From Acanthornis magna (Eukaryota > Chordata > Aves > Passeriformes > Acanthizidae), in assembly GCA_036785705.1 (NCBI GenBank), contig JAWUZG010000051.1:13668501-13732500 (forward strand): a DNA stretch of 64,000 nucleotides, given 5' to 3'. The notes beneath the pieces are model-generated. The model was not told where the DNA came from. It did no database searches and worked only from the letters and a program-made list of their open reading frames with translations. Position 1 is the stretch's first letter, and each line of letters starts with the position of its first letter. The position numbers and the translations under genes are program-made. Shown here piece after piece: positions 1-41,264 of the stretch.

Positions 1-564
1 CAGAACACACAGCAACCAGACAAACAACAAGCAGCAGAGGATGAGAATATGCATGTCAAAGCGACTCCGTACTTCCTCCTCTAGCCCACACCTTTCAGGT
101 TCCCAGCATTTCCATTGCATCAGCTTACAGCCAAATTCCTAATAGATTATTAAAAGCTGCACGTTGGCATTAGTGTTTGCATGTCTTGAGTCTGCAGCAT
201 GTTACGGAGCTGTACCTTCTGCCTTCCTGCAGAGTTCAGCCCTGCTCTCCTCCCCCGCACTCTTAACTGTGCCTTTTTTTTTCAGTACATGCCTGCAAGG
301 CTTTGGGACTGGCCTGGCTTAGCCCGAATTTGTATAAAGAGTTTCTTGGAATCCAGCTACAGTTAATGAATCACATCATATCAGCTTCTATCAGCAATTG
401 CAACATACTTCAGAGGATGTTCCCCTTGGTCTTCAGAAAAAGGGCCGGTGCTGGGCTTGCCTATCTGCACCCGTGAATTGCCAGCCTGGTGCAAAGAAGT
501 CAAGAGAAACTGGGGATCTCAGCATAATCTGGAGCAATCTGGGCAAAATGGAAACACCTGGTAG

Positions 565-12483: not shown

Positions 12484-13011
12484 CTAATAACGGCCAGGGC
12501 GAAGAGGACGCAGGAAGGAAAGCTTGTCATTGAGGTTGATTGCCTTGTAATTTGGAAGGTTTTCACGGTCTCGAGCAAGGTATTGAATTCCACTTCCATC
12601 ACTGTTTTCACACAGCAGCCAAACACCTCTCTGGACTTTGTGAGAAGACATGATGTCATTGTCGTGTCCCGCAGCCAGGTTGGTTGCTTCTTTTACTACC
12701 CTGCTCTTCCCTTGATACTGGGCATGCTCATAGAGAGTGATCTGGGGATCACTCAGATCTTCCGTGATCTTCTGCAGAGAACTGATCTTATTATTCAGCC
12801 TTGAACCAAAAAAGCTATGTTCTCCCTCCTCAAGTACCATAAATTTACCTCCATAGTTTGAATGCTCATAAACCACCCAAGGCTGCCCAATTACTTTTGC
12901 CGAGGAGGCAAGATCATTCCAATCTTCATCTCTTAGATTGGCAATGTCAGAGGTGAATTCTTTGGACAAACCCTGGAAGTTGACATGCTCATAAAGAATG
13001 ATTTTCCCCAT
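12484..13011 (-). CDS. Gene 1: beta/gamma-crystallin, EDSP-like protein
   Basis: The protein has 175 residues and consists of four Greek-key motifs, i.e. two beta/gamma-crystallin domains. The motifs start at about residues 4 ([10 protein letters not shown]), 45 ([11 protein letters not shown]), 91 ([11 protein letters not shown]) and 130 ([12 protein letters not shown]). The crystallin Ca2+-site pattern N/D-N/D-x-x-S/T-S is only partly kept: NDLASS and NDIMSS fit, NNKISS fits, and NDKLSF lacks the last Ser. There is no signal peptide or membrane segment, so a cytosolic protein is expected. The start was chosen at the MGKI Met because it is shared by all copies, although the frame stays open upstream. 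The closest relatives I know are the epidermal differentiation-specific (EP37-type) proteins, which have roles in amphibian skin; the function in birds is inferred only. Residues that differ from gene 3 are about 56 of 175. Confidence 0.88.
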
Positions 13012-13600
13012 CTCAGTAGGACTTCTAGAGTTTGAATTTCTTCCTCTAGGAGCTGGATGACAGCCTGCATGAAAAGAGGACAGAAAACAAGCAATGCTTG
13101 TAAGAAGCCTTTTGGACCTAAAAACAAAATGATGGATGCCCAGGAGGAAAAAGGGGGGAAAAAGGAAAAACAAAACATTTTGAACAAAGAATAAATGTAG
13201 AAGCAGCTGAAAAAGAGTGAGGTCATGATATATGTGTGTTGGTTTAGGGATATGCCCAAGATTAAGTTGTAAAATACTCCCATGTTCACCCCTCACAATT
13301 GTGTGTCACCAGCCCTCTCCACCCTCTCCCTTGGCAAGGTTGGTTTCTCCTGCAGCAGCCATCTCCTCATCCCCTGAAAGACGGCTTCAGTCTCTGCACA
13401 TGCACACAGCAGAGCCTCCCGTCCGTGCTGCACCTCTCTTCCCATCACTAAAGCCTCCTTCCCTTCCTTCCCCTGCATTCCACAGCAGCTGCCCAAGACA
13501 CCCATTCCAGTTCTCCTGTACAAAGTGTGCCTCTCACCTTGATGTCAGCTGTAGGGCTGGGGAGAGCTGAGGGTGATTCCTCCAGTGCAGGGCTGCTCTT
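13012..13600 (-). other. Gene 1 leader exon, intron and 5' part of exon 2
   Basis: Exon 1 is about 13600-13538 and ends CATCAAG|GTGAGAG. The intron is 13537-13065 and ends in a pyrimidine tract and GCAG. Exon 2 starts at 13064, 53 bp before the ATG. The leader exon and the first ~300 bp of the intron are almost identical in genes 1 to 5, whereas the rest of the intron is clearly diverged. Confidence 0.75.
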
Positions 13601-13624
13601 TGTGCAGTGTCTCACCTGCCTCCA

Positions 13625-13630
13625 TTTATA
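13625..13630 (-). promoter_or_regulatory. TATA box of gene 1
   Basis: TATAAA on the minus strand (GCTATAAATGGAGG) lies about 90 bp upstream of the exon 1 donor, matching genes 2 to 5. Confidence 0.75.
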
Positions 13631-13740
13631 GCTTGCACAGAAGTCTTGTGAAACACCCCAGTCAACGGAACCGAAAGGATCTGATATTACCCCCAGGCAG
13701 GGGTCAAAACTCACTAAACATTTCATTTTACTTTATATGG

Positions 13741-14769: not shown

Positions 14770-15150
14770 ATAATCATGCATGTATTTATGTACAGTAATA
14801 AGTGTATATGGCAGTATAGTAGATCATAATCACAAGCATCAATATTCTTCTCTCAAAACCAGACAGAAAGTTACAGTCTAGAACCCAGACATGGAGTGTA
14901 AATAGAGAGCTACTGGCATGGTGTAAAACCAGATACAGAGTCAGAAATTTGAAGCAGAAGCATGGCAAAACAAACATAGATATTTCCAGACACTTCTTTT
15001 CAGAAAATACCAAATATTGTAAAAGGTGCTTTATATTGTCTGTTTTTGAATTTAAGCACTTGAAAGTGTTTAGACATGGTGTTTCTTTAACAGACATGTC
15101 AAGCAGCAATCTTATTGTGCAAAATATGACTCTAAACATTAGAGGTGCTT
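14770..15150 (+). repeat. Upstream unit of gene 1, paralogous to 22.1 kb
   Basis: It aligns with 22075-22430 and, inverted, with 36630-36990 (shared GAGAGCTACTGGCATGGTGT and AAGTGTTTAGACATGGTGTT). It contains no gene that I can support. Confidence 0.8.
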
Positions 15151-15154
15151 AGGC

Positions 15155-16680
15155 TATGTGGAAGATGACAGCATGTGTTCCATGAACTTTATCAAACAAA
15201 GCCCTTTTTGGTTCAAAAAGAGTCATAACGGTGTGCTTTGGCAGCAAAGTTCCAGCTGCAGTAGCCGGCAAGTAGGGCATGGATCCGGGCAGGGACATCC
15301 GCCAGGCAGGAGACTCGTGCTGGGATTCAAGGCACCCACGAGTGCCAGAAGGCCAGGGAGACCAGGCTGTGCTGTGTGTGGAGCTGGCTGCAAGCAACAA
15401 GCTGCAGCAGCCAGGCAGTAGGAGACACCAAAGTGTCCTTGGGTCAGAGAGCCCAGAGCCAGGGGTGAGACTGGACAGGCTGAGGGCTCTCAGCCCTGTT
15501 GGAAGGAGCTGTGAGGTGCTTGTGGCTGTGGAGAGTGAGGGTGTGCAGGTGTTCACGAGTGGCCTTCAGTGTGGCTGCTGTGCAGAGGAGGAAGGAGACT
15601 GGGCTGTGTCTCTTCCATCCTGTGGCAGTGCTGCTGGTGTCACCTGTGGCGTGGCTGAGGGCAGCCCCTGGGCTGTGGCAGCCGCTGCAGTTGGCCGTGG
15701 CCGTGTCCTGTCCGTGCACATGTGCGTGCCTGGCTCTGGCTCACACAGCCACCCTCAGCACGGACTGCCCCTGCACCCTGGGCAGCAGCACCGGGAAAAG
15801 CAGCCCTCGACAGACACCCTGCAGCCTGGGCTCCAGCAGCCGAGCACCACGAGTCCCTGGGGCTGCACCCTGCTCGTTCCCAACTATCCCTACACACGGC
15901 ACTTGGAGAGTGACTTGGCCAAAACAGAGCTCTGGAATCAGTGTTTTCCCACTGAAAAACCACCCTCGTCTAACTTCATTGTTTTTCCTTTTACTTTCAG
16001 TCCTGATCAGCTGCTTGCAGGAACTACCATGAGCTTTCTTGGAAGAGCATCTTGTGTGTTGAAATCCTACAGATCCTCAGATGCTCTCTCAGTTCCCTTT
16101 TTCTTGCACTTGTGGTTGGGCATTATGCTATTTCTACTCTCTTGAAAGCAGAACCACATCCTGAAAAATTCCTTTCCAGAAACCCAAATTCACCAAGAAA
16201 GCCCCAAACACTAAACTGAGGAGAGACAAATTGCAGGACACATTAATTGCTGAGTGCAAGGACAATGCAAAGGAGCTCCTTAGACTCACTGAGTCAATGT
16301 CAGTGCACAGAAATCCCCATCAGGACAGTGTCAGACTGACATGGCTGAATAGAAGGGATGGGCAAAGGACACTGATCATCTTTATATATAGCAAGATCCC
16401 TCAGGAACAATATGGCTCAGGAAATACTAGGATTTGCCTGTCTTGTCCTCAAGTCGTGAGATTGAATGATCCTGTGAGCCAGGAGGATTGTAGGATTGCT
16501 GGATAATTGGGGTTGGAAGTGACCTTTGGTTGCCCTTGGGCTCAGTCTGCTGCACAGGAATGACTGTGATGTGAATGATGCTTGCTTGTGGCTTTATCCA
16601 GTCAGGTCTGGAAAACCCCTGAGCATGGAGACCACAGAATTTCTCTGGGTGGTGTGATTTAAAATTTGCTGACCTCATTG
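15155..16680 (+). repeat. GC-rich segment X, copy 1
   Basis: This segment is repeated at 23735-25285 (direct) and 33800-35335 (inverted), all very similar. Several frames are open in the GC-rich part on both strands; the longest on the plus strand (15279-16145, 288 codons) is preserved in all three copies and ends in a hydrophobic stretch (about residues 270-288). I do not recognise it. Preservation is no proof of coding here, because the copies are nearly identical and the GC-rich composition keeps stops rare. It may be a gene of unknown function or a non-coding duplicon. Confidence 0.8.
15279..16145 (+). CDS. Unrecognised 288-codon open frame in segment X, copy 1
   Basis: The translation begins MDPGRDIRQA and has Ser-, Pro-, Gln- and His-rich middle parts. 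It has Cys pairs near residues 97-101 and a hydrophobic C-terminal end (FFLHLWLGIMLFLLS). No domain is recognisable. An internal TTTTACTTTCAG at about 15990-16001 looks like a splice acceptor, so a real transcript might be spliced differently. I list the frame because it is intact in three copies; I think it more likely non-coding than coding. Confidence 0.2.
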   Translation: MDPGRDIRQAGDSCWDSRHPRVPEGQGDQAVLCVELAASNKLQQPGSRRHQSVLGSESPEPGVRLDRLRALSPVGRSCEVLVAVESEGVQVFTSGLQCGCCAEEEGDWAVSLPSCGSAAGVTCGVAEGSPWAVAAAAVGRGRVLSVHMCVPGSGSHSHPQHGLPLHPGQQHREKQPSTDTLQPGLQQPSTTSPWGCTLLVPNYPYTRHLESDLAKTELWNQCFPTEKPPSSNFIVFPFTFSPDQLLAGTTMSFLGRASCVLKSYRSSDALSVPFFLHLWLGIMLFLLS

Positions 16681-17770: not shown

Positions 17771-18514
17771 ACACAGCTTCAGCAGTTCTATTCTTTTGCA
17801 AGTATCGTAAACCCTTCTGATATCAAAGATTGCCAGGCTTTGATATCCCTGAAGAAAAAGAAATCCCTTTACCTGGGTTTTGCCAAGGTAATCATATTAT
17901 ACTCCTTTTCCCTTTTGTATCTTCCACTTCAAAGGAGAAATAAGCCCAATGCACCAATTTCAGGGCACTTTCTACTACCAAGAAAGGACAAAACAGTAAC
18001 TGAATGCTTATAAGTTACACCCTAAAAAAAGATATTGCAAGAATCTTCAGGTCGTAGTGTCAGAATCCAGGAAATGTCATCAGCAAGGATGCTCTTGCAT
18101 CTTCATTTTTTTCCCCTCATTGTATGAGACCACCCCGTAATCTTGAACCCCATACATATATGTGGTGTTCTTTCACTGTTCCTCACCACATTCAGGTGTT
18201 ATCCACTACATGTTTGATAAGCAGCTAGAAAGGAACTAATCTTTCAGCCTTTAATGCCACCGGTGTAAACCATCCAGTCTTAGCTGTAAAAATGCTAAAA
18301 CTTTACCAGAGACTTCTGTCTACAGAGCTCTACACAGTAGGACAGAGTAGATTTCCTCCTCAGTCAGCCTTGGAAAACACAAGATTTTGCTGATACTTAA
18401 AATATCAGAGTGCTGAAAAGGAGGTACTGTAGATGTGAAAAGAGGAATATGAAACTAAGAGACAGGGACCTGAAACCATGGCAAGGTTCACTGTATTGCT
18501 GAATTTGCACATCC

Positions 18515-18960
18515 TAGAATCACAAAATCACAGAATGATTTGAGCTGGGAGAGATCTGGGCAGGGATGCCTTCCACTAGACCAGGTTGCTCAAAGCCCTG
18601 TCCAGCCTGGCCTTGAACACTTTGAGGGATGGGGCATCCACAGCTTCTCTGGGCAATCTCTGCCAGTGCCTCACCACCCTCATCATATAAATATGCTGTC
18701 AAACGCATGACTGAAATTTCCCCTCTCTAGGTTTCAAAGGCCCCAGTAAAAAGTCTGCAGAGGTGCATGCAGTGCTCCAGGTGGGATCTCACCATAGTGA
18801 ATTAGAGGGGGAGAATCCCCTCCCCTGACCTGCTGGCTACACTTCATGCAGCCCATGATACCTTTGGCTTTCCAGGCTGCGAGCTCACATTGCTGGGCCA
18901 CGTTTGCTTTTTCATCCAGCAGTATCCCCAGTTCCTACTCAGCAGGGCTGCCCTCAGTCC
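18515..18960 (-). mobile_element. CR1 fragment, antisense (inside left arm)
   Basis: The reverse complement of the CR1 3' end starts at CCTAGAATCACAAAATCACA and continues through CTTCCACTAGACCAGGTTGC. The mirror copy is at about 40100-40555. Confidence 0.8.
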
Positions 18961-19299
18961 ACTCATCTCCAACTGTTCTGATCTGCAAATGAGTAGGTGA
19001 AGGCTGTGCTGAAGCTGTGCTGAAGCTGTTCTGGCTGTCTCAAATCATCCCCCTGTCCTCCGTGTGCCTACAAGTACAAATAGAGAAATGGAAAATGCAG
19101 GAAGTAGCTTGAGATATTTAATTGTGAGCACACCTCCTTGCTGAATCACCCTAACTGAGCAAGTCGCTGGCTAAGTGAGTTCACCTGTAAAACATCAGAA
19201 ATCTTTATAGAGCTCTTCTCTCTGGAGGAAATGCCTTCTTTTGGAGCACTACTGCTCTGCTGCTGACACATTCATGTCTGTGCTGCCACGCACACAAGA

Positions 19300-19590
19300 A
19301 TGGCCTTGTCAGGATCACTGGGAACCAGTAACAAATGGTGACCCTCAAGGGTCCCTGCTGCCACCAAGAGTGCTCCATGTCTTCATCAGTGGCGCAGGCA
19401 GTGGGATCGAGTGCACCCTCAGCGAGTCTGCAGGTGACACCAAGCTGAGGAGTGAGTGTGACACACTGAGGGAAGGGACCATGCAGAGGGACCTCAGCAG
19501 CCTCCAGCACTGGCACCATATGGACTCATGAGGTCACAAAGGCCAAGAGCATCTCCTGTCTGACCAAGGCAGCAACCAATGCCAGGAGAT
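19300..19590 (+). mobile_element. CR1 ORF2 fragment (inside left arm)
   Basis: Sense CR1 ORF2 text (GTGACCCTCAAGGGTCCCTG ... AGTGGGATCGAGTGCACCCT). The stretch 19000-19600 is also related, in direct orientation, to 62090-62760, so CR1 and flank were duplicated together. Confidence 0.7.
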
Positions 19591-20245
19591 TGTGGCAAAC
19601 AGGAGGTCAGCACAGAGGGAGATAAACACTGCAGTGCAGAGCTGCCATGTGGCAGCTGTCATAATACACAGCTCAGGGCGTGCAGCTGTCATTATACAGT
19701 GGTGGAGGAGGGCTGAGACTCTGCCATTCCAGGTGAACTTGCCCATGGCAAAAGAGATCAATGGAATACCTTGTCATTCCTCCTGCCTTCTCAAGATACA
19801 ACAGGTTTAAAAAACAAGACAGGTTTTTCCATTGGGATCAACCAATCATTCCATTCAAAGTTGTGAGAACTTACTGTTTGATTATGTGATTAAGGGTGTT
19901 AGAAGACTGTATCACCAGCAAGATCCAGCACATTGATTGACTGTAGGAGATAAATCAAATGTGGGATAATTGGCAACACTGCATGGGAGAATTTGGCTAG
20001 GATCACAGCATTAATCAACAGGATCACCAAGATTTTAACACTGGCTGAGTCAAGCCTGCACCCACTGTTACTGACCAGTGAAACTGGAAGGAGATAAAAT
20101 TCTGCAGGAGACATTCAGGAAAAATATTTGCAAGTGACTGCATGAACCATTCTCTGGACACACAGAGACATCTCATTGTGAAAGAGCAATATTTATCTAT
20201 TCTAAAGAGGCATAGCAAAGCCCCACTGCTGATTGCAGAAGATTC

Positions 20246-20251
20246 TTTATT
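20246..20251 (-). terminator. Polyadenylation signal of gene 2 (AATAAA)
   Basis: AATAAA on the minus strand (GCCAATAAAGAATC), about 420 bp after the ancestral stop, as in gene 4. Confidence 0.65.
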
Positions 20252-20670
20252 GGCACCAATGCAAACTGGATTACAGACAATGGCAGAGGCCAGTGTACCA
20301 CAAGGGCATTGGCAAGCAAATCACAAAGGAAGGGGTGCTGGTTCTGTACTCACATTTTCTGTTGCACTTAGCAACAGAGACAACATGCAATGCTTCTACA
20401 TTCCATAGCCCAGGACTGCAATGCCAGCTGAGGGTGCAATAGGTTCCACACCCCTGGCATGCCTCTCAGCTTGGACACTCTTTCATATGATCAAGTGTGA
20501 TAACCTTTTCATTTTATGGGGCAGGAGAAGAGTGCAAGGCAGGATAGATGGGCAGTGCAGCACAGCAGAGAGCTCCCAGGGAAAAAAAGCTACACAAATG
20601 GAAGGAGAAATCTAGATCTCAGATTTCTTGCTGGCTCTGCATCTTTCCTCCGCTTTGGAGGATTTGCATT

Positions 20671-21201
20671 CTAATAAGAACGGCCAGGGTAAAGGGGACG
20701 CAGGTAGGAAAGCCTGTCATTGAGGTAGATTGCTCCGTACTGTGGAAGGTGTTCATTTTCTCATGCAATGTATTGAATTCCACTTCCATCACTGTGCTCA
20801 CACAACAACCAGGCTCCTCTCTGGACCTTGTGGGAAGACATGATGTCATTGTCAAATCCTGCAGCCAGATTGGTTGCTTGTCTTATGACCCTGCTCTTCC
20901 CTTGATAGTTGGGATGCTCATAGAGAGTGATCTGGGGATTGTGCAAATCTTCCGTGATCATCTGCAGAGAATTGATTGTGTCATTCATCCTTCTCCCAAC
21001 AAAGTCATGTTTTCCCTCCTCAAGTACCAGTAACCTGCCTGTATAGTTTATGTGCTCGTAAGCCACCCAAGGCTGGCCAATTACTTTCACTGAGGAGATA
21101 ATATCATTAAAATCCAAATGTCCCAGATTGGAAATGTCAGAAGTGATTTCCCTGGACACACCCCTGAAGTGGGCATGCTCATAAATGATGATTTTTCCCA
21201 T
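20671..21201 (-). pseudogene. Gene 2: EDSP-like beta/gamma-crystallin with a premature stop
   Basis: The frame starts like its relatives ([14 protein letters not shown]) and is open for 146 codons, then meets TGA at 20763-20761 where gene 4 has CGA (Arg147). The loss removes the last 29 residues, i.e. most of the fourth Greek-key motif, which remains readable downstream to the old stop at 20671. A C-to-T change at a CpG explains it. Apart from that the protein differs from gene 4 at only three residues that I can see (Lys/Glu in the EEGxHDF segment, Asn/Ser in DTxSSL, Tyr/Cys in ITLxEH). A truncated product lacking one Greek key would probably not fold normally, so I call it a pseudogene, but the promoter and splice sites are intact and it may be transcribed. 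A stop polymorphic within the species is possible. Confidence 0.85.
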
Positions 21202-21845
21202 CTCAGTGGGACTTCTGGAGATGCAAGTTCTTGCTGCAGGTCTTGGATGACAGCCTGCACAAAAGGAAGACAGAAAACAATCAAAGCCTATAAGAAGACT
21301 TTACAGAAAATGATGGAAAGCATGGGGAAGTAAAGAAAAAGTAAAACATTTTTCGCAATGAAGAAATGCAACACCAGCTTGAAAAGAGAGAAGGCTTTAA
21401 ACAGAAATTTGTATTTAGAGGGAAAAAGTAAAATGATGTGTGTGCCCACAACTCTCCAGTTTTAATTAGTTGTGTGTACTGGTTTAGGGATATGCCCAGG
21501 ATTAAATTGTAAAATAGTCTCATGTTCACCCCTCACAATTGTGTGTCACCAGCCCTCTCCACCCTCTCCCTTGGCAAGGTTGGTTTCTCCTGCAGCAGCC
21601 ATCTCCTCATCCCCTGAAAGATGGCTTCAGTCTCTGCTCATGCACACAGCAGAGCCTCCCATCCGTGCTGCACCTCTCATCCCATCACTAAAGCCTCCTT
21701 CCCTTCCTTCCCCTGCATTCCACAGCAGCTGCCCAAGACACCCATTCCAGTTCTCCTGTACAAAGTGTGCCTCTCACCTTGATGTCAGCTGCAGGGCTGG
21801 GGAGAGCTGAGGGTGATTCCTCCAGTGCAGGGCTGCTCTTTGTGA
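21202..21845 (-). other. Gene 2 leader exon, intron and 5' part of exon 2
   Basis: Exon 2 begins at 21254 (GCAG|GCTGTCATCC), the intron is 21777-21255, and exon 1 ends at 21778 (ATCAAG|GTGAG). All splice signals match those of the intact genes. Confidence 0.75.
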
Positions 21846-21866
21846 AGGGCATCTTACCAGCCTCCA

Positions 21867-21872
21867 TTTATA
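21867..21872 (-). promoter_or_regulatory. TATA box of gene 2
   Basis: TATAAA in the same context as gene 4 (AGTATAAATGGAGGCTGG). The conserved upstream block with AGTCACTCACACTTCCATGG (minus strand) lies at about 21961-22041. Confidence 0.75.
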
Positions 21873-22074
21873 CTTGCTCAGCAGTCTTGTGAAACTCCCC
21901 AGTCAACAGAACTGGGAAGTGGCACCATGCTCAGGGATCCAGACTCATTAACTATCCTGTCCTTATTTAGATGTTCCTATAATCAGACATCTCATTGCTC
22001 TCATTCAAAAGTCCATGGAAGTGTGAGTGACTTGATGAAATGGGGGGCCAATGTGCCACATGCAATCATATATG

Positions 22075-23734
22075 TCTTTCTGTATGGTAATAGGTGCACG
22101 TGGTACTGTAGTAGGTGATAATCCCAAGCATCAATATTCTTCTCTCAAAGCCAGACAGAAGATCACTCCATTTCCAGCAGAAATGGAGTGTAAATAGAGA
22201 GCTACTGGCATGGTGTAAAACCAGATACAAAGTCAGAATTCTAAAGCAGAAGCATGGCAAAACAAACATAGATATTTCCAGACATTTCTTTTCTGGAAAT
22301 ACCAAATATTGTAAAGGGTGCTTTTTCTGTCTGTTTTGAATTTAAACACTTGAAAGTGTTTAGACATGGTGTTTCTTTCACAGACATGTCAAGCAGCAAT
22401 CTTACTGTGCTAAATATGACTCTCAACATTTTGCCAATCCAGGCTGAAGTAAATGCTTCAGATAATATTTCTTTTTAATGTTTTTCCTCTATCAACTGTT
22501 TCTGTTTCTGTCTATGGACCACCAATATTGTTTCTCCTCATTTCCCCTTCCTCCTTTATTTTCTTCTCTACATGGGTACAAATTACATCCTACATCCAAT
22601 TATTGGTTCTCCCAAATGCCAGACTGTGCTCTCAACAACTACTGGAACTTTGCTTTGCAGAAAACAGCATTCCATAAATTTCATAATCCTCTTCTGCAGG
22701 GAATTCCATAGTGTGTGTCCTCAGAACTCAGCTCATCCTCTCTTTGGTCACTGCCTTTCAAGGGGCTTTGACTACACTCATTCTGCTCTGGTCCACCTCA
22801 CCAATCGCCAAGCACAAGAAAGATCATCCAATGAGTTATTAAATTGAATTGAACTAACAATGAATTGTAGAACTAGCTGTATTTCTGCATTTTTTCCTAA
22901 AAATACTAAGTAATTGCCTCTGGTCACTTATCAGCAGGAGCTTAAGTTGCAGCATCATGCCACTGGAGGTTGTTCTTCCTCTCTGCTGGTTTTGAAATCA
23001 ACTAACAGGCATTCTGGCCAAGATTACAAAGTCATCACTAGAACACTTCCCAGAGTCAACTCTAAGCCCTTGTTCCTTTTTCAATTGTTTAAAATATTTC
23101 TGGTTTATATTTTCACAAAATGTTTTATGTTGTCACTTAAAATGTTCATGAAAATCTACATTCACATAAAATGAATTTTCAGCACAAAAGGAACACAAAA
23201 TGAAGATGGGTTGTTCATTTGTTTGAGTGGTTTTTAATTCTTGCTTGCCTTTTCTGTTGTAAGACGCAATGATGTCCACTCAGAGGAAACTGTCTGCAGG
23301 AGCCCAACCACTAACAGAAATGGCAGGTAGGGAAAAGTTAGAGAGAACTCTGAGACCTGGGTCACTGGGTGGTCATCATGAGTCTAACACTGTCTTCCCC
23401 AAGCTTTGAGCACTGCGTGGCACAGAGCAGGGTGCGGTGCTTTGGCAGGGAAGCCATGGCCAGACTTGCATGAGCACCTGAGCTACAACAGAGGCAGTGA
23501 CACGTGACAGAGAGGCTGCTGCAGGGCATGGGGTCTGCAAGAGCAGATTGAAGAGGCATGGATCCTGCACAGGCCTGAACTAAGATGGATTGTTCTGTTG
23601 AACCCTGCTGTCTCTCCTCCTTTCATCACCAGCAATGCAGGTGTCTCCTTCTATCCTGCTAAGACCCATCTTGCTCCACAGGCTTCCAGCACTTGTGAAT
23701 TTTAAAGTGTGGGAAGGCAAGCTGGTAAGGGAAT
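22075..23734 (+). repeat. AT-rich upstream unit of gene 2
   Basis: The first 360 bp are shared with the gene 1 unit. The remaining 1.3 kb (22430-23734) is present only here and, inverted, at about 35335-36630. It holds short open frames such as 22572-22847 that are preserved in both arms simply because the arms are so similar. No gene was recognised. Confidence 0.7.
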
Positions 23735-25285
23735 GTGGAAGATGACAGCATTTGTTCCATGAACTTTATCAAACAAAGCCCTTTTTGGTTCAAAAAGAGT
23801 CATAACAGTGTGCTTTGGCAGCAAAGTTCCACCTGCAGTAGCCAGCAAGTAGGGCATGGATCTGGGCAGGGACATCCACCAGGCAGGAGACTCGTGCTGG
23901 GATTCAAGGCACCCACGAGTGCCAGAAGGCCAGGGAGAGCAGGCTGTGCTGTGTATGGGGCTGGCTGCAAGCAACAAGCTGCAGCAGCCAGGCAGTAGGA
24001 GACACCAAAGTGTCCTTGGGTCAGAGAGCCCAGAGCCAGGGGTGAGACTGGACAGGCTGAGGGCTCTCAGCCCTGTTGGAAGGAGCTGTGAGGTGCTTGT
24101 GGCTGTGGAGAGTGAGGGTGTGCAGGTGTTCACGAGTGGCCTTCAGTGTGGCTGCTGTGCAGAGGAGGAAGGAGACTGGGCTGTGTCTCTTCCATCCTGT
24201 GGCAGTGCTGCTGGTGTCACCTGTGGCGTGGCTGAGGGCAGCCCCTGGGCTGTGGCAGCCGCTGCAGGTGGCCGTGGCCGTGTCCTGTCCGTGCACATGT
24301 GCGTGCCTGGCTCTGGCTCACACAGCCACCCTCAGCACGGACTGCCCCTGCACCCTGGGCAGCAGCACCGGGAAAAGCAGCCCTCGACAGACACCCTGCA
24401 GCCTGGGCTCCAGCAGCCGAGCACCACGAGTCCCTGGGGCTGCACCCTGCTCGTTCCCAACTATCCTTACACACGGCACTTGGTGAGTGACTTGGCCAAA
24501 ACAGAGCTCTGGAATCAGTGTTTTCCCACTGAAAAACCACCCTCGTCTAACTTCATTGTTTTTCCTTTTACTTTCAGTCCTGATCAGCTGCTTGCAGGAA
24601 CTACCATGAGCTTTCTTGGAAGAGCATCTTGTGTGTTGAAATCCTACAGATCCTCAGATGCTCTCTCAGTTCCCTTTTTCTTGCACTTGTGGTTGGGCAT
24701 TATGCTATTTCTACTCTCTTGAAAGCAGAACCACATCCTGAAAAATTCCTTTCCAGAAACCCAAATTCACCAAGAAAGCCCCAAACACTAAACTGAGGAG
24801 AGACAAATTGCAGGATACATTAATTGCTGAGTGCAAGGACAATGCAAAGGAGCTCCTTAGACTCACTGAGTCAATGTCAGTGCACAGAAATCCCCATCAG
24901 GACAGTGTCAGACTGACATGGCTGAATGGAAGGGATGGACAAAGGACACTGATCATCCTTATATATAGCAAGATCCCTCAGGAACAATATGGCTCAGGAA
25001 ATACTAGGATTTGCCTGTCTTGTCCTCAAGTCATGAGCTTGAATGATCCTGTTAGCCAGGAGGATTGTAGGATTGCTGGACAATTGAGGTTGGAAGTGAC
25101 CTTTGGTTGCCATTGAGTCCAGTCTTCTGCTTAATACAGGGACGACTGTGATGTGAATTATGCTTGCTTGTGGCTTTATCCAGTCAGGTCTTGAAAACCT
25201 CTGGGTATGGAGACTACCCAACATCTCTGGGTGGTGTGATTTAAAATTTGCTGACCTTATTGTGAAAATGTTTCTCACTCTTTCA
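23735..25285 (+). repeat. GC-rich segment X, copy 2
   Basis: Very similar to copy 1 and copy 3. The 288-codon frame (23856-24722) is intact; compared with copy 1 it differs at about seven residues. See copy 1 for the coding question. Confidence 0.8.
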
Positions 25286-30890: not shown

Positions 30891-31116
30891 ACTTGATGTC
30901 ACTTGATCACTGGCTGAGTCAAGCCTGAACTCACTGTTACTGACCAGTGAAACTGGAAGGAGATCAAACCTTTTGGGAACCATCCATGAAAAAGTCTAAA
31001 AGTGACTGCATGACACATTTTCTGAGCACACAGAGACATCTCTCCATGAAAGGGCAATATATATATCTACATGAAACCATCCATAGAACAGACCCATTGT
31101 TGCTTGCAAAAGATTC

Positions 31117-31122
31117 TTTAAT
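31117..31122 (-). terminator. Polyadenylation signal of gene 3 (ATTAAA)
   Basis: ATTAAA on the minus strand (GCCATTAAAGAATC), about 160 bp after the stop, aligned with the signals of the other copies. Confidence 0.6.
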
Positions 31123-31284
31123 GGCACCAATGCAAACTGGATTACAGAAAATGGCAGAGGCCAGCATACCACAAGGGCATTGGAAAGCAAATCACAAAGG
31201 AAGGGACACAAGCAGAGGCAGAGATCAAGGTTTCACATTTCCTGCTGGGGTTGCATCTTCCCTCACGGTCACAGGATTTGCAGC

Positions 31285-31815
31285 CTAAGAGTCATGCCCA
31301 GGGCGAAGGGGACGCAGGAAGGAAAGCTTGTCATTGAAGTCGATTTCCTTGTAATTGGGAACGTCTTCATGCTCTCGGGCAAGGTGTCGAGGTCCACTTC
31401 CATCGCTGTTTTCACACAGCAGCCAGACACCTCTCTGGACTTTGTGAGAGGACACGATGTCATCATCCCCTCCTCCAGTCAGATCGGTTGCTTCTCTCAC
31501 TATCCTGCTCCTCCCTTTGTATTCAACATGTTGATAGAGAGTGATCTGGGGATCGTGCAGATCTTCAGTGATCAGCTTCAGAGAGCTGATCTTGTCATTC
31601 ATGTCTTTCCCAACAGAGTCATATTCTCCCTCCTCAAATACCAGAAACTGACCCTTATAGTTGACATGCTCATAAGCCACCCAAGGCTGGCCAATTACTT
31701 TCACTGAGGAGACAATGTCATTCCAGCCTACAGCTGTTAGCTTGGGAGTGTCAGTGGTGAATTCTTTGGACAAACCCCGGAAGTTGATATGCTCATAAAT
31801 GATGATTTTTCCCAT
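31285..31815 (-). CDS. Gene 3: beta/gamma-crystallin, EDSP-like protein
   Basis: An intact 176-residue protein of two beta/gamma-crystallin domains. Greek-key starts are at about residues 5 (IIYEHINFRG), 45 (WVAYEHVNYKG), 91 (ITLYQHVEYKG) and 130 ([12 protein letters not shown]). Ca2+-site motifs N/D-N/D-x-x-S/T-S are seen at 32-37 (NDIVSS), 73-78 (NDKISS) and 118-123 (DDIVSS). The fourth, NDKLSF at 161-166, lacks the final Ser. The three intact sites suggest that Ca2+ binding is possible. No signal peptide is present. The gene is the single copy inside the palindrome spacer; its promoter lacks the conserved upstream block of the other copies, so its expression may differ. The extra C-terminal part that I associate with amphibian EP37 proteins is absent. 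Confidence 0.9.
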   Translation of the reverse strand: MGKIIIYEHINFRGLSKEFTTDTPKLTAVGWNDIVSSVKVIGQPWVAYEHVNYKGQFLVFEEGEYDSVGKDMNDKISSLKLITEDLHDPQITLYQHVEYKGRSRIVREATDLTGGGDDDIVSSHKVQRGVWLLCENSDGSGPRHLAREHEDVPNYKEIDFNDKLSFLRPLRPGHDS

Positions 31816-32475
31816 CTCAGTAGGACTTCTAGAGTTTGAATTTCTTCCTCTAGGAGCTGGATGACAGCCTGCATAAAAGGAGGACAGAAAACAAGCAATG
31901 CTTGTCAGAAGCCTTTACACACCAGACACAAAATGATGGAGAAGGTGGGGGGAAAAAAGAAAGAAGGGAAAATCAACATTTTTTAAACAAAGAATAAACA
32001 TAGCCGCAACTGGAGAGGAGTGAGGGCATGACATAGAAATTTTCATTTGGATGACAATGTAAAATTAGTTATGTACCCACAGCTTCCCAGTTTTAAGTTT
32101 TTTAGTTCTGTGTGTTGGTTTAGGGATATGCCCAAGATTAAGTTGTAAAATACTCTCACGTTCACCCCTCACAATTGTGTGTCACCAGCCCTCTCCACCC
32201 TCTCCCTTGGCAAGGTTGGTTTCTCCTGCAGCAGCCATCTCCTCATCCCCTGAAAGATGGCTTCAGTCTCTGCTCATGCACACAGCAGAGCCTCCCGTCC
32301 GTGCTGCACCTCTCATCCCATCACGAAAGCCTCCTTCCCTTCCTTCCCCTGCATTCCACAGCAGCTGCCCAAGACACCCATTCCAGTTCTCCTGTACAAA
32401 GTGTGCCTCTCACCTTGATGTCAGCTGTAGGGCTGGGGAGAGCTGAGGGTGATTCCTCCAGTGCAGGGCTGCTCT
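31816..32475 (-). other. Gene 3 leader exon, intron and 5' part of exon 2
   Basis: Exon 2 begins at 31868 (GCAG|GCTGTCATCC), the intron is 32413-31869, and exon 1 ends at 32414 (ATCAAG|GTGAGAG). The proximal intron differs from that of gene 1 at only about 5-7 positions in 300. Confidence 0.75.
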
Positions 32476-32502
32476 TTGTGAAAGGTGTCTCACCTGCCTC
32501 CA

Positions 32503-32508
32503 TTTATA
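32503..32508 (-). promoter_or_regulatory. TATA box of gene 3
   Basis: AGTATAAATGGAGGCAGG on the minus strand, at the same distance from the donor as in the other copies. Upstream of about 32530 the similarity to the other promoters ends. Confidence 0.75.
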
Positions 32509-32754
32509 CTTGCTCAGCAGTCTTGTGAAATATCCCAGTTGTCAGAATGAAAAGTGACCGATTCTCCTCAAAAGCCAGATCAGCCACAGTAATTCAAACA
32601 CACCAAAGTACATTGTGACACATGGGCTATGAAAGTTTCCTGCTTGTTGCAGTTTATATCACTACTCTCCTGGGGAATACTTATAATGAGCAAGGTCTTT
32701 CTTTGGAAGATATCCAGGTCACAGAAATGGAATTGAAAAAAAAAAATCACTTTT

Positions 32755-32870
32755 ATCCTTAGAATCTTGGAATCATTAAGGCTGGAAAAGGCCTCCAAGA
32801 TCATCAAAATCCAACCTCTGCCTGAAGATCAACATACCCACTAATCCATGTTGCAAGTGATACTTCTCTC
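32755..32870 (-). mobile_element. Short CR1 fragment, antisense
   Basis: AGAATCTTGGAATCATTAAG followed by GGCTGGAAAAGGCCTCCAAG is the reverse complement of a CR1 3' end. It marks the point between gene 3's upstream region and segment S copy 2. Confidence 0.7.
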
Positions 32871-33800: not shown

Positions 33801-35335
33801 ATGAGGTCAGCAAATTTTAAATCACACCACCCAGAGAAGTTCTGTGGTCTCCATGCTCAGGGGTTTTCCAGACCTGACTGGATAAAGCCACAAGCAAGCA
33901 TCATTCACATCACAGTCGTCCCTGTATTAAGCAGCAGACTTGGCCCAATAGCAAGGGTCACTTCCAGCCTCAATTATCCAGCAATCCTACAATCCTCCTG
34001 GCTCACAGGATCATTCAAGCTCATGACTTGAGGACAAGACAGGCAAATCCTAGTATTTCCTGAGCCATATTGTTCCTGAGGGATCTTGCTATATATAAAG
34101 ATGATCAGTGTCCTTTGCCCATCCCTTCTATTCAGCCATGTCAGTCTGACACTGTCCTGATGGGGATTTCTGTGCACTGACATTGACTCAGTGAGTCTAA
34201 GGAGCTCCTTTGCATTGTCCTTGCACTCAGCAATTAATGTGTCCTGCAATTTGTCTCTCCTCAGTTTAGTGTTTGGGGCTTTCTTGGTGAATTTGGGTTT
34301 CTGGAAAGGAATTTTTCAGGATGTGGTTCTGCTTTCAAGAGAGTAGAAATAGCATAATGCCCAACCACAAGTGCAAGAAAAAGGGAACTGAGAGAGCATC
34401 TGAGGATCTGTAGGATTTCAACACACAAGATGCTCTTCCAAGAAAGCTCATGGTAGTTCCTGCAAGCAGCTGATCAGGACTGAAAGTAAAAGGAAAAACA
34501 ATGAAGTTAGACGAGGGTGGTTTTTCAGTGGGAAAACACTGATTCCAGAGCTCTGTTTTGGCCAAGTCACTCTCCAAGTGCCGTGTGTAGGGATAGTTGG
34601 GAACGAGCAGGGTGCAGCCCCAGGGACTCGTGGTGCTCGGCTGCTGGAGCCCAGGCTGCAGGGTGTCTGTCGAGGGCTGCTTTTCCCGGTGCTGCTGCCC
34701 AGGGTGCAGGGGCAGTCCATGCTGAGGGTGGCTGTGTGAGCCAGAGCCAGGCATGCACATGTGCACGGACAGGACACGGCCACGGCCAACTGCAGCGGCT
34801 GCCACAGCCCAGGGGCTGCCCTCAGCCACGCCACAGGTGACACCAGCAGCACTGCCACAGGATGGAAGAGACACAGCCCAGTCTCCTTCCTCCTCTGCAC
34901 AGCAGCCACACTGAAGGCCACTCGTGAACACCTGCACACCCTCACTCTCCACAGCCACAAGCACCTCACAGCTCCTTCCAACAGGGCTGAGAGCCCTCAG
35001 CCTGTCCAGTCTCACCCCTGGCTCTGGGCTCTCTGACCCAAGGACACTTTGGTGTCTCCTACTGCCTGGCTGCTGCAGCTTGTTGCTTGCAGCCAGCTCC
35101 ACACACAGCACAGCCTGGTCTCCCTGGCCTTCTGGCACTCGTGGGTGCCTTGAATCCCAGCATGAGTCTCCTGCCTGGTGGATGTCCCTGCCCAGATCCA
35201 TGCCCTACTTGCTGGCTACTGCAGGTGGAACTTTGCTGCCAAAGCACACTGTTATGACTCTTTTTGAACCAAAAAGGGCTTTGTTTGATAAAGTTCATGG
35301 AACAAATGCTGTCATCTTCCACATTCCCTTACCAG
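33801..35335 (-). repeat. GC-rich segment X, copy 3 (inverted)
   Basis: Nearly identical to copy 2. The 288-codon frame (35201-34335, minus) is intact, with only a few residue changes. Confidence 0.8.
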
Positions 35336-37000
35336 CTTGCCTTCCCACACTTTAAAATTCACAAGTGCTGGAAGCCTGTGGAGCAAGATGGGTCTTAGCA
35401 GGATAGAAGGAGACACCTGCATTGCTGGTGATGGAAGGAGGAGAGACAGCAGGGTTCAACAGAACAATCCATCTTAGTTCAGGCCTGTGCAGGATCCTTG
35501 CCTCTTCAATCTGCTCTTGCAGACCCCATGCCCTGCAGCAGCCTCTCTGTCACGTGTCACTGCCTCTGTTGTAGCTCAGGTGCTCATGCAAGTCTGGCCA
35601 TGGCTTCCCTGCCAAAGCACCGCACCCTGCTCTGTGCCACGCAGTGCTCAAAGCTTGGGGAAGACAGTGTTAGACTCATGATGACCACCCAGTGACCCAG
35701 GTCTCAGAGTTCTCTCTAACTTTTCCCTACCTGCCATTTCTGTTAGTGGTTGGGCTCCTGCAGACAGTTTCCTCTGAGTGGACATCATTGCGTCTTACAA
35801 CAGAAAAGGCAAGCAAGAATTAAAAACCACTCAAACAAATGAACAACCCATCTTCATTTTGTGTTCCTTTTGTGCTGAAAATTCATTTTATGTGAATGTA
35901 GATTTTCATGAACATTTTAAGTGACAACATAAAACATTTTGTGAAAATATAAACCAGAAATATTTTAAACAATTGAAAAAGGAACAAGGGCTTAGAGTTG
36001 ACTCTGGGAAGTGTTCTAGTGATGACTTTGTAATCTTGGCCAGAATGCCTGTTAGTTGATTTCAAAACCAGCAGAGAGGAAGAACAACCTCCAGTGGCAT
36101 GATGCTGCAACTTAAGCTCCTGCTGATAAGTGACCAGAGGCAATTACTTAGTATTTTTAGGAAAAAATGCAGAAATACAGCTAGTTCTACAATTCATTGT
36201 TAGTTCAATTCAATTTAATAACTCATTGGATGATCTTTCTTGTGCTTGGCGATTGGTGAGGTGGACCAGAGCAGAATGAGTGTAGTCAAAGCCCCTTGAA
36301 AGGCAGTGACCAAAGAGAGGATGAGCTGAGTTCTGAGGACACACACTATGGAATTCCCTGCAGAAGAGGATTATGAAATTTATGGAATGCTGTTTTCTGC
36401 AAAGCAAAGTTCCAGTAGTTGTTGAGAGCACAGTCTGGCATTTGGGAGAACCAATAATTGGATGTAGGATGTAATTTGTACCCATGTAGAGAAGAAAATA
36501 AAGGAGGAAGGGGAAATGAGGAGAAACAATATTGGTGGTCCATAGACAGAAACGGAAACAGTTGATAGAGGAAAAACATTAAAAAGAAATATTATCTGAA
36601 GCATTTACTTCAGCCTGGATTGGCAAAATGTTGAGAGTCATATTTAGCACAGTAAGATTGCTGCTTGACATGTCTGTGAAAGAAACACCATGTCTAAACA
36701 CTTTCAAGTGTTTAAATTCAAAACAGACAGAAAAAGCACCCTTTACAATATTTGGTATTTCCAGAAAAGAAATGTCTGGAAATATCTATGTTTGTTTTGC
36801 CATGCTTCTGCTTTAGAATTCTGACTTTGTATCTGGTTTTACACCATGCCAGTAGCTCTCTATTTACACTCCATTTCTGCTGGAAATGGAGTGATCTTCT
36901 GTCTGGCTTTGAGAGAAGAATATTGATGCTTGGGATTATCACCTACTACAGTACCACGTGCACCTATCACCATACAGAAAGACATATATGATTGCATGTG
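35336..37000 (-). repeat. AT-rich upstream unit of gene 4 (inverted copy)
   Basis: Mirror of 22075-23734, with very few differences. No gene was recognised. Confidence 0.7.
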
Positions 37001-37020
37001 GCACATTGGCCCCCCATTTC

Positions 37021-37085
37021 ATCAAGTCACTCACACTTCCATGGACTTTTGAATGAGAGCAATGAGATGTCTGATTATAGGAACA
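37021..37085 (+). promoter_or_regulatory. Conserved upstream promoter block, gene 4
   Basis: AAGTCACTCACACTTCCATG followed by an AT-rich part ending GATTATAGGAACAT. It is shared with genes 1, 2 and 5 at a near-constant distance from TATA. An AP-1-like core is an inference. Confidence 0.5.
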
Positions 37086-37184
37086 TCTAAATAAGGACAG
37101 GATAGTTAATGAGTCTGGATCCCTGAGCATGGTGCCACTTCCCAGTTCTGTTGACTGGGGAGTTTCACAAGACTGCTGAGCAAG

Positions 37185-37190
37185 TATAAA
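37185..37190 (+). promoter_or_regulatory. TATA box of gene 4
   Basis: TATAAA in AGTATAAATGGAGGCTGG; transcription would start near 37215. Confidence 0.75.
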
Positions 37191-37855
37191 TGGAGGCTGG
37201 TAAGATGCCCTTCACAAAGAGCAGCCCTGCACTGGAGGAATCACCCTCAGCTCTCCCCAGCCCTACAGCTGACATCAAGGTGAGAGGCACACTTTGTACA
37301 GGAGAACTGGAATGGGTGTCTTGGGCAGCTGCTGTGGAATGCAGGGGAAGGAAGGGAAGGAGGCTTTAGTGATGGGATGAGAGGTGCAGCACGGATGGGA
37401 GGCTCTGCTGTGTGCATGAGCAGAGACTGAAGCCATCTTTCAGGGGATGAGGAGATGGCTGCTGCAGGAGAAACCAACCTTGCCAAGGGAGAGGGTGGAG
37501 AGGGCCGATGACACACAGTTGTGAGGGGTGAACGTGAGAGTGTTTTACAACTTAATCTTGGGCATACCCCTAAACCAACATACATAAATCATTAGAACTG
37601 GGCAGTTGTGGGCACACATATCGTTTTACTTTTTCCCTCTAAATACAAATTACTATGTAAAGCCTTCTCTCTTTTCAAGCTGCTGTTACATTTCTTCATT
37701 GTGAAAAATGATTTACATTTTCTTTTCTTCCCCATGCTTTCCATCATTTTCTGTAAAGTCTTCTTATAGGCTTTGATTGTTTTCTGTCTTCCTTTTGTGC
37801 AGGCTGTCATCCAAGACCTGCAGCAAGAACTCGCATCTCCAGAAGTCCTACTGAG
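37191..37855 (+). other. Gene 4 leader exon, intron and 5' part of exon 2
   Basis: Exon 1 ends at 37279 (ATCAAG|GTGAGAG), the intron is 37280-37802 with a pyrimidine-rich end (CTTCCTTTTGTGCAG), and exon 2 starts at 37803. Reading through the splice, the frame of the crystallin ORF stays open back into exon 1. Confidence 0.8.
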
Positions 37856-38386
37856 ATGGGAAAAATCATCATTTATGAGCATGCCCACTTCAGGGGTGTG
37901 TCCAGGGAAATCACTTCTGACATTTCCAATCTGGGACATTTGGATTTTAATGATATTATCTCCTCAGTGAAAGTAATTGGCCAGCCTTGGGTGGCTTACG
38001 AGCACATAAACTATACAGGCAGGTTACTGGTACTTGAGGAGGGAGAACATGACTTTGTTGGGAGAAGGATGAATGACACAATCAGTTCTCTGCAGATGAT
38101 CACGGAAGATTTGCACAATCCCCAGATCACTCTCTGTGAGCATCCCAACTATCAAGGGAAGAGCAGGGTCATAAGACAAGCAACCAATCTGGCTGCAGGA
38201 TTTGACAATGACATAATGTCTTCCCACAAAGTCCAGAGAGGAGCCTGGTTGTTGTGTGAGCACAGTGATGGAAGTGGAATTCAATACATTGCACGAGAAA
38301 ATGAACACCTTCCACATTACGGAGCAATCTACCTCAATGACAGGCTTTCCTACCTGCGTCCCCTTTACCCTGGCCGTTCTTATTAG
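37856..38386 (+). CDS. Gene 4: beta/gamma-crystallin, EDSP-like protein
   Basis: An intact 176-residue partner of gene 2 in the opposite palindrome arm. Greek-key starts lie at about residues 5 ([10 protein letters not shown]), 45 ([11 protein letters not shown]), 91 ([11 protein letters not shown]) and 130 ([12 protein letters not shown]). Ca2+-site motifs are NDIISS (32-37), NDTISS (73-78) and NDIMSS (118-123); the fourth, NDRLSY, is incomplete. A Cys replaces the usual Tyr in the third motif, which alters a core aromatic position; gene 2 still has Tyr there, so the change is recent. The start is the shared MGKI Met. No signal peptide is present. It is probably the only working member of the gene 2/gene 4 pair. 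Confidence 0.9.
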
Positions 38387-38805
38387 AATGCAAATCCTCC
38401 AAAGCGGAGGAAAGACGCAGAGCCAGCAAGAAATCTGAGATCTAGATTTCTCCTTCCGTTTGTGAAGCTTTTTTTCCCTGGGAGCTCTCTGCTGTGCTGC
38501 ACTGCCCATCTGTCCTGCCTTGCACTCTTCTCCTGCCCCATAAAATGAAAAGGTTATCACACTTGATCATATGAAAGGGTGTCCAAGCTGAGAGGCATGC
38601 CAGGGGTGTGGAACCTATTGCACCCTCAGCTGGCATTGCAGTCCTGGGCTATGGAATGTAGAAGCATTGCATGTTGTCTCTGTTGCTAAGTGCAACAGAA
38701 AATGTGAGTACAGAACCAGCACCCCTTCCTTTGTGATTTGCTTGCCAATGCCCTTGTGGTACACTGGCCTCTGCCATTGTCTGTAATCCAGTTTGCATTG
38801 GTGCC

Positions 38806-38811
38806 AATAAA
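38806..38811 (+). terminator. Polyadenylation signal of gene 4 (AATAAA)
   Basis: GCCAATAAAGAATC, 420 bp after the stop; the transcript would end near 38830. Confidence 0.7.
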
Positions 38812-38899
38812 GAATCTTCTGCAATCAGCAGTGGGGCTTTGCTATGCCTCTTTAGAATAGATAAATATTGCTCTTTCACAATGAGATGTCTCTGTGTGT

Positions 38900-39479
38900 C
38901 CAGAGAATGGTTCATGCAGTCACTTGCAAATATTTTTCCTGAATGTCTCCTGCAGAATTTTATCTCCTTCCAGTTTCACTGGTCAGTAGCAGTGGGTGCA
39001 GGCTTGACTCAGCCAGTGTTAAAATCTTGGTGATCCTGTTGATTAATGCTGTGATCCTAGCCAAATTCTCCCATGCAGTGTTGCCAATTATCCCACATTT
39101 GATTTATCTCCTACAGTCAATCAATGTGCTGGATCTTGCTGGTGATACAGTCTTCTAACACCCTTAATCACATAATCAAACAGTAAGTTCTCACAACTTT
39201 GAATGGAATGATTGGTTGATCCCAATGGAAAAACCTGTCTTGTTTTTTAAACCTGTTGTATCTTGAGAAGGCAGGAGGAATGACAAGGTATTTCATTGAT
39301 CTCTTTTGCCATGGGCAAGTTCACCTGGAATGGCAGAGTCTCAGCCCTCCTCCACCACTGTATAATGACAGCTGCACGCCCTGAGCTGTGTATTATGACA
39401 GCTGCCACATGGCAGCTCTGCACTGCAGTGTTTATCTCCCTCTGTGCTGACCTCCTGTTTGCCACAATCTCCTGGCATT
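38900..39479 (-). repeat. 3' flank of gene 4, mirror of 19.6-20.2 kb
   Basis: Inverted copy of the gene 2 3' flank. No gene was recognised. Confidence 0.6.
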
Positions 39480-39770
39480 GGTTGCTGCCTTGGTCAGACA
39501 GGAGATGCTCTTAGCCTTTGTGACCTCATGAGTCCATATGGTGCCAGTGCTGGAGGCTGCTGAGGTCCCTCTGCATGGTCCCTTCCCTCAGTGTGTCACA
39601 CTCACTCCTCAGCTTGGTGTCACCTGCAGACTCGCTGAGGGTGCACTCGATCCCACTGCCTGCGCCACTGATGAAGACATGGAGCACTATTGGTGACAGC
39701 AGGGACCCTTTAGGGTCACCATTTGTTACTGGTTCCCAGTGATCCTGACAAGGCCATTCTTGTGTGCGTG
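39480..39770 (-). mobile_element. CR1 ORF2 fragment (inside right arm)
   Basis: Mirror of 19300-19590. Confidence 0.7.
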
Positions 39771-40099
39771 GCAGCACAGACATGAATGTGTCAGCAGCAG
39801 AGCAGTAGTGCTCCAAAAGAAGGCATTTCCTCCAGAGAGAAGAGCTCTATAAAGATTTCTGATGTTTTACAGGTGAACTCACTTAGCCAGCGACTTGCTC
39901 AGTTAGGGTGATTCAGCAAGGAGGTGTGCTCACAATTAAATATCTCAAGCTACTTCCTGCATTTTCCATTTCTCTATTTGTACTTGTAGGCACACGGAGG
40001 ACAGGGGGATGATTTGAGACAGCCAGAACAGCTTCAGCACAGCTTCAGCACAGCCTTCACCTACTCATTTGCAGATCAGAACAGTTGGAGATGAGTGGA

Positions 40100-40560
40100 C
40101 TGAGGGCAGCCCTGCTGAGTAGGAACTGGGGATACTGCTGGATGAAAAAGCAAACGTGGCCCAGCAATGTGAGCTCGCAGCCTGGAAAGCCAAAGGTATC
40201 ATGGGCTGCATGAAGTGTAGCCAGCAGGTCAGGGGAGGGGATTCTCCCCCTCTAATTCACTATGGTGAGATCCCACCTGGAGCACTGCATGCACCTCTGC
40301 AGACTTTTTACTGGGGCCTTTGAAACCTAGAGAGGGGAAATTTCAGTCATGCGTTTGACAGCATATTTATATGATGAGGGTGGTGAGGCACTGGCAGAGA
40401 TTGCCCAGAGAAGCTGTGGATGCCCCATCCCTCAAAGTGTTCAAGGCCAGGCTGGACAGGGCTTTGAGCAACCTGGTCTAGTGGAAGGCATCCCTGCCCA
40501 GATCTCTCCCAGCTCAAATCATTCTGTGATTTTGTGATTCTAGGATGTGCAAATTCAGCA
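40100..40560 (+). mobile_element. CR1 fragment (inside right arm)
   Basis: Mirror of 18515-18960. It ends at the CR1 3' tail (TTGTGATTCTAGGATG). Confidence 0.8.
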
Positions 40561-41264
40561 ATACAGTGAACCTTGCCATGGTTTCAGGTCCCTGTCTCTT
40601 AGTTTCATATTCCTCTTTTCACATCTACAGTACCTCCTTTTCAACACTCTGAAATTTTGTATAGCAGAGTCTATATAGCTCCAAGTATCAGCAAAATCTT
40701 GTGTTTTCCAAGGCTGACTGAGGAGGACATTTACCATATTCTACTGTGTAGGGCTGTGTAGACCAAAGTCTCTGCTAAAGTTTCTGCATGCTAAGGCTGA
40801 ATGGTTTACAGCTGTGGCATGAAAGGGTAGAAGAATAGTGCCTTTCACGCTGCTTTTCAGGCATGTAGTGGATAACACCTGAATGTTGTGAAGCAGGGTG
40901 GAAAAACACCACGTATATGGAAAGAATTCAAGATTATGGGGTGGTCTCATACAATGGGGGGAAAAAAATGAAGATGCAAGAACATCCTTGTTGATGACAT
41001 TTCCTGGATTCTGGCACTATGACCTGAAGATTCTTGCAATATCTCTTTTTAGGGTGTAACATATAGTTATTCAGTTAATCTTTTTTCTTAGTAGCAGAAA
41101 CTGCCCTGAAATTGGTGCTTTGGGCTTATTTCTCCTAAGTGGAAGATATAAAAGGCCAAAGAAGTGAGTTATGATTAACCTGGAAAAACCCAGGCAAAAT
41201 ATTTTATTTTTCTTCAGGGATATCAGAGCCTGGCTATCTTTAACTTCAGAAAGGTTTATTATAC

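Follow-up and report, generated by a model that had tools for sequence, protein, structure and literature searches.

What keeps the 5' parts of clustered paralogous genes nearly identical while their coding exons diverge? This question is raised by an array of genes in Acanthornis magna, part of which lies in a stretch of 64,000 nucleotides (the window). An earlier reading of the window from its letters alone (the sequence-only reading) had noticed that about 300 bp of exon 1 and adjoining intron of two genes, g1 and g3, differ at only 5-7 positions, whereas about 56 of 175 amino acids differ. The near-identity of g1 13301-13600 and g3 32177-32476 holds, with a corrected count of 4 mismatches in 300 bases (ungapped comparison); the coding parts indeed differ at 56 amino acids, g1 being 175 aa long, and their dS is 0.33. 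Two explanations had been set against each other, conversion of the promoter-proximal part or diversification of the coding exon. These are not alternatives, and both processes probably occur, in different parts of the genes. The contrast itself very probably has ectopic (interlocus) gene conversion as its main cause, which circulates a 5' cassette among the ten genes of the array.

Organization of the array

A search of the assembly revealed ten units of a leader and an exon 2 on one contig, C51, and one truncated orphan leader. Four genes (g1 to g4) are complete inside the window, which also contains the start of g5; g1, g2 and g3 are located on the minus strand, g4 and g5 on the plus strand. 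Every gene in the window appears to possess a TATA box, a short non-coding exon 1 and a donor site, and in g1 to g4 an intron of 473-545 bp is followed by a single coding exon of 175-176 codons. Exon 1, the splice sites and the start site are predictions from the DNA sequence. The reading frames are intact in eight of the ten genes, the exceptions being g2 (stop) and g6 (frameshift). The features are as follows (window coordinates unless marked C51).

13298..13632, minus: g1 leader cassette (TATA box TATAAA, putative exon 1, proximal intron to +240)
13630-13625, minus: g1 TATA box TATAAA
about 13603-13538, minus: putative g1 exon 1
13537 and 13065, minus: predicted g1 donor GT (at 13537) and acceptor AG (ending at 13065)
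13065..13537, minus: g1 intron, 473 bp, proximal part within the cassette, distal part diverged
12484..13064, minus: g1 exon 2 (5' UTR 13064-13012; CDS 13011-12484, 175 aa)
21538..21872, minus: g2 leader cassette
20671..21201, minus: g2 coding exon with TGA at codon 147 (20763-20761)
32174..32508, minus: g3 leader cassette
31285..31815, minus: g3 coding exon, 176 aa
37185..37519, plus: g4 leader cassette
37856..38386, plus: g4 coding exon, 176 aa
63712..64000, plus: g5 leader cassette; the gene runs past the window end
18390..25105, no strand: arm of a recent inverted duplication, holds g2
33952..40667, no strand: arm of a recent inverted duplication, holds g4
15143-16528, 23720-25105, 33952-35337 and C51:13771365-13772750: copies of a 1386-bp intergenic unit

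Nested recent inverted duplications carry g2, g3, g4, g7 and g8; the block with g3 and g4 (window 30118-44500) has a further recent inverted copy outside the window, at C51:13776583-13761472, which carries g7 and g8. The 1386-bp unit is located upstream of g1, g2, g4 and g7 and its copies are 98-99% identical; it has seven matches in the assembly (four of full length), every one within the array. The likeness of this unit near old paralogs fits array-wide exchange, and a recent duplication of the unit would account for it as well. At 49-58 kb of the window, open frames that look retroviral by eye are found on both strands, and long pyrimidine/purine-strand tracts are located at 43762-44117 and about 47053-47860.

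Encoded proteins

The array proteins are two-domain members of the beta/gamma-crystallin superfamily and are avian EDSP-like. The g1 to g4 proteins match PF00030 in two stretches each (E 2.5e-32 to 3.2e-30), and most of the best 120 protein matches per query come from birds and bear the name EDSP or epidermal differentiation-specific protein(-like). A structure model with a mean pLDDT of 90.5 predicts a fold similar to that of gamma-crystallin 1m8u (TM 0.84). The stretches NDIVSS, NDKISS and DDIVSS (e.g., in g3, 31285-31815) would fit the calcium-clamp motif of beta/gamma-crystallins. A secreted role is unsupported, since no signal peptide was seen by eye at the N terminus (MGKI...). The eight intact coding exons end after 175-176 codons, behind the crystallin pair, and thus lack an aerolysin-type domain, which excludes a pore-forming protein of the EP37 or betagamma-CAT type. 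A distant paralog on another contig (C49:9241025-9241543 and on) is 47% identical. In addition to the crystallin pair it contains about 180 residues that gave no significant Pfam match, and its layout appears to resemble that of EP37. In 3519 bases examined at this paralog, the leader has matches of 24 and 15 bases only.

Among the matches listed, the nearest relatives of g1 and g3 are 84-91% identical and occur in many songbirds, and those of g4 are 84-89% identical and occur in four genera. Within the array, the g3 protein is 68% identical to g1 and 64% to g4. A protein tree was calculated from 94 rows, namely 91 of 151 fetched proteins, chosen by us, and three window genes. Among the proteins in the tree, the top identity to other species is 90% for g1, 91% for g3 and 89% for g4, and each of the three joins different songbird relatives; only the g4 set (five rows) has high support (98%), and 50 of 91 inner branches are supported by less than 80%. 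Since g1, g3 and g4 are closer to proteins of other songbirds than to each other, the coding paralogs would be old and predate much of the songbird radiation, though their leaders are only a few percent apart.

Extent of the conserved leader

Identity was followed in windows of 60 bases, in which 0 is the first intron base. Between -60 and +240 all pairs of genes are 92-100% identical, and in the +240 window all pairs still reach 87-97%. Pairs other than g2-g4 are 80-93% identical in the -120 window; further upstream, identity drops to about 70% or clear homology is missing. Around the donor site, the conserved block extends from about -100 to +290. The sequence-only reading had drawn the conserved span at 13065-13600 of g1, which is right for the cassette (about 13298-13632) but not for the distal intron, as 13118-13237 is diverged. 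In the acceptor/5' UTR region (about 13112-12990) g1 and g3 are close again, whereas g2 and g4 are not. As had also been noticed, the distal intron and the 3' flank are diverged: in old pairs, the windows at +300..+480 show 59-87% identity and those of the 3' flank 66-93%, with 70-98% in exon 2 windows and 78-85% DNA identity over the coding exons. The ratio of leader K (-60..240) to coding dS, calculated for eight genes with g6 (frameshift) and g8 (coding exon identical to g3) omitted, is 0.025-0.20 in 24 old pairs and 0.72-4.9 in four young pairs. Synonymous sites of the coding exon are not as conserved as the proximal intron, dS being 0.23-0.46 across the 24 old pairs.

The leader has a G+C content of 0.55-0.56. 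Values are lower in the 3' flank (0.40-0.53), exon 2 (0.43-0.47) and the distal intron (0.34-0.48); biased conversion would give such a raised leader G+C. A genome search with the leader returned 11 matches, all inside the array, which rules out a dispersed repeat. Birds are without PRDM9, and their recombination is reported to track CpG islands, not start sites per se (PMC12047795). The leader is CpG-poor (observed/expected 0.04-0.17), and a CpG-island recombination hotspot of this kind is therefore ruled out.

Separate histories of leader and coding exon

The leader and the coding parts have independent histories, as shown by comparisons that were all made within one Acanthornis magna assembly. 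In Mantel tests over 45 gene pairs, leader distances are unrelated to exon 2 distances (r -0.11, p 0.81), whereas the distal intron (r 0.87) and the 3' flank (r 0.76) follow exon 2. The mean exon 2 distance is 0.186 in 38 old pairs and 0.032 in seven young pairs; the mean leader distance is 0.031 and 0.035, respectively. In the young trio g2, g4 and g7, the greatest divergence sits in the leader/intron block. The arms holding g2 and g4 differ at 77 of 6716 bases overall, but at 26 of 240 at +240..480; 29 of the 77 differences fall at intron +226..+446 and 31 inside 350 bp from +226 (permutation p 0.0005). For g4 and g7, 16 of 110 bases differ at -110..0 and 9 of 240 at 0..240, compared to 5 of 650 in exon 2. 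The young pair g3-g8 has no clustering of differences in the leader (5/410 vs 41/4082; exon 2 0/610).

Tree-based and run-based tests agree only in part. In AU tests, the leader rejects the grouping g2+g4+g7 (p 0.027) and exon 2 rejects g7+g9 (p 7e-57); for g5+g6+g9 the leader gives p 0.058. Alleles that differ within the five young pairs are found in other coding clades at 27 of 45 leader-core sites and at 29 of 80 exon 2 sites, a modest effect (Fisher p 0.015). In a max-run permutation test, eight runs had a p value of at most 0.0011 (0.05/45). Two of them connect old pairs inside the leader (g2-g10 at -52..+112 and g2-g8 at +155..+258); the remaining six lie outside the leader or come from young pairs.

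Judged by its bases in this one assembly, at least one gene of the array, g7, is a chimaera. Its coding exon is g4-like (99.3%), as is the DNA upstream of about -106; the stretch at about -105..-61 is g5-like, and from -36 to +217 (254 bp) g7 is identical to g9. Both genes have common changes at -4, -3 and -1, which the other eight genes all lack. Since g7 and g9 are about 15 kb apart in opposite orientation and their flanks are unchanged, conversion fits g7 and crossing-over does not. The max-run test did not return g7-g9 at p<0.01, as there are few variable sites; the evidence for the chimaera consists of the private changes common to g7 and g9 and of the fall in identity between g4 and g7. 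The g9-like stretch of 254 bp also leaves a simple promoter hotspot unsupported. The suggestion of the sequence-only reading that conversion keeps the promoter-proximal part uniform is supported by the unrelated distances, by the leader/intron block being the most diverged part among g2, g4 and g7, and by the mosaic structure of the g7 leader.

Tests of selection on the coding exon and rival explanations

The coding exon was also proposed to be driven to diversify. NG86 pairwise dN/dS is 0.37-0.68 and below 1 in all 24 old pairs, and the ML omega under a single rate is 0.80. Site models point to a subset of codons: M2a is favoured over M1a (2dlnL 10.7, p 0.0047) and M8 over M8a (p 0.0005), and the M2a class has an omega of about 2.2 at 32% of codons. 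These p values come from code of our own, run on eight sequences with the branch proportions taken from M0 and held fixed; moreover, tests of this kind can be inflated if conversion takes place within the exon. The signal persists when g2 is omitted, when five lineages are used and under another topology, and none of 23 null simulations reached it. It is present in the N half (p 0.0017) and absent from the C half (p 0.46). Of the 27 high-posterior sites, 22 are located outside strands and 5 within them, compared to 73 of 171 residues in strands (p 0.006). Positive selection on part of the coding exon is therefore likely, with the models as support rather than proof. As the cause of the contrast, however, diversification fails. 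If selection of the kind seen in venom-type families had accelerated the coding exon, with the leader evolving at a normal rate, the site-model signal and its position outside the strands would be expected, but divergence extends to synonymous sites, the distal intron and the 3' flank, and the pairwise dN/dS values stay under 1. It is the leader that stands out, and we regard this explanation as very improbable.

Purifying selection alone, which would have kept the leader base by base as a regulatory element since the old duplications, is very improbable and as a sole cause already contradicted. It would account for ten much alike copies with few indels that contain a TATA box, exon 1 and a donor site. 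It also predicts that leader distance rises with coding distance, which is not the case. Scaled from the old pairs, constraint would allow 0.3-1.4 leader-core differences per young pair, but 4, 13, 9, 4 and 18 were observed; the five young pairs partly overlap, and the background rates were chosen by us. Compared to its own unconstrained background, the leader core has an excess of differences in g4-g7 (p 0.0001) and g2-g7 (p 0.028), not in g2-g4 (p 0.32), g3-g8 (p 0.35) and g5-g9 (p 0.18). Nor does constraint explain the three private changes that g7 and g9 have in common across coding clades, or the structure of g9 and g6, in which the cassette is shared only from about the start site on: exon 1 and the proximal intron are kept, yet the DNA upstream is different and without the TATAAATGG box. 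A recent spread of the leader by transposition or segmental duplication (exon shuffling), rather than by repeated conversion, is extremely improbable. The array does contain many recent inverted duplications, and the orphan leader (C51:13786200-13786425) belongs to a 2.3-kb copy (98.6% identical) of the g5 5' region and is truncated at about +106. However, in ten of ten genes the leader occupies the homologous place, and the distal intron and exon 2 that come after it can be aligned; all 11 leader matches are within the array, and the source changes along the leader of the single gene g7.

Proposed mechanism

Under interlocus conversion, a cassette of about 300-400 bp, composed of the core promoter, the non-coding exon 1 and the first about 240 bp of the intron, would evolve as one pool common to the tandem and inverted genes of the array, whereas coding exons, distal introns and 3' flanks would mostly retain the older history of the paralogs. 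The non-reciprocal exchange would correspond to gene conversion, acting patchwise over the array and followed by a filter. Tracts in the coding exon would mostly be purged by selection, presumably since the proteins of the paralogs are distinct and in part under positive selection; tracts in the leader may be harmless or useful and thus be tolerated, or favoured for uniform expression. Converted leader tracts would in turn renew the identity that conversion requires. Selection for uniform regulation via the leader is a plausible conjecture. A stronger version, in which selection keeps the cassette circulating for joint regulation, the coding exons are barred from conversion and diverge mostly in loops, and the cassette is a non-CpG-island conversion hotspot, appears rather unlikely.

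Comparison with known systems

Among the titles listed in literature searches (20 of 3,344 in the largest), none deals with the avian EDSP family, and none was returned on feather keratin and conversion; two papers listed for avian EDSP concern the newt limb and human cell culture. Going by these searches, the array appears to be unpublished. The process itself is known. In the mammalian BEX/WEX/GASP genes, the BGW element in 5' UTR exons is kept alike by gene conversion (PMC1274310). As in the songbird array, the genes are clustered, their coding parts are diverged, the 5' UTR exon is converted independently of the coding part, and chimaeric genes and a raised G+C in the converted part are found (PMC1274310). 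In contrast to the array, whose coding exons form one family, conversion of BEX/WEX/GASP also joins different protein families (PMC1274310); furthermore, the array cassette, known here from one species, includes the promoter and the proximal intron.

In the central Mup genes of the mouse, the histories of promoter and exon 1 conflict, and conversion is considered to bring the promoters and coding exons of the tandem array into new combinations; the pattern is the reverse, however, with coding parts more than 98% alike and divergent promoters (PMC4777540). Ectopic conversion mainly in one gene part of a small array was also described for the HMA4 triplet of Arabidopsis halleri, which is a mirror image, as the coding sequences are converted and the promoters have a different history (PMC3749932). 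A snake serum protein array (PMC6609765) was considered and provides no close precedent. Regarding the proteins, amphibian EP37/EDSP and the alpha subunit of betagamma-CAT likewise have two N-terminal beta/gamma-crystallin domains, but add an aerolysin-type domain, whereas the array genes stop after the crystallin domains (PMC3110756, PMC10206775).

The array offers a compact natural case in which the promoter and coding histories of the same genes can be separated base by base. The identity of promoters or introns is unfit for dating or pairing such paralogs, and the CpG-poor cassette can be used to test which factors confine interlocus conversion in birds. The songbird array adds a clear case from birds to a process that has been described in a few other gene families.
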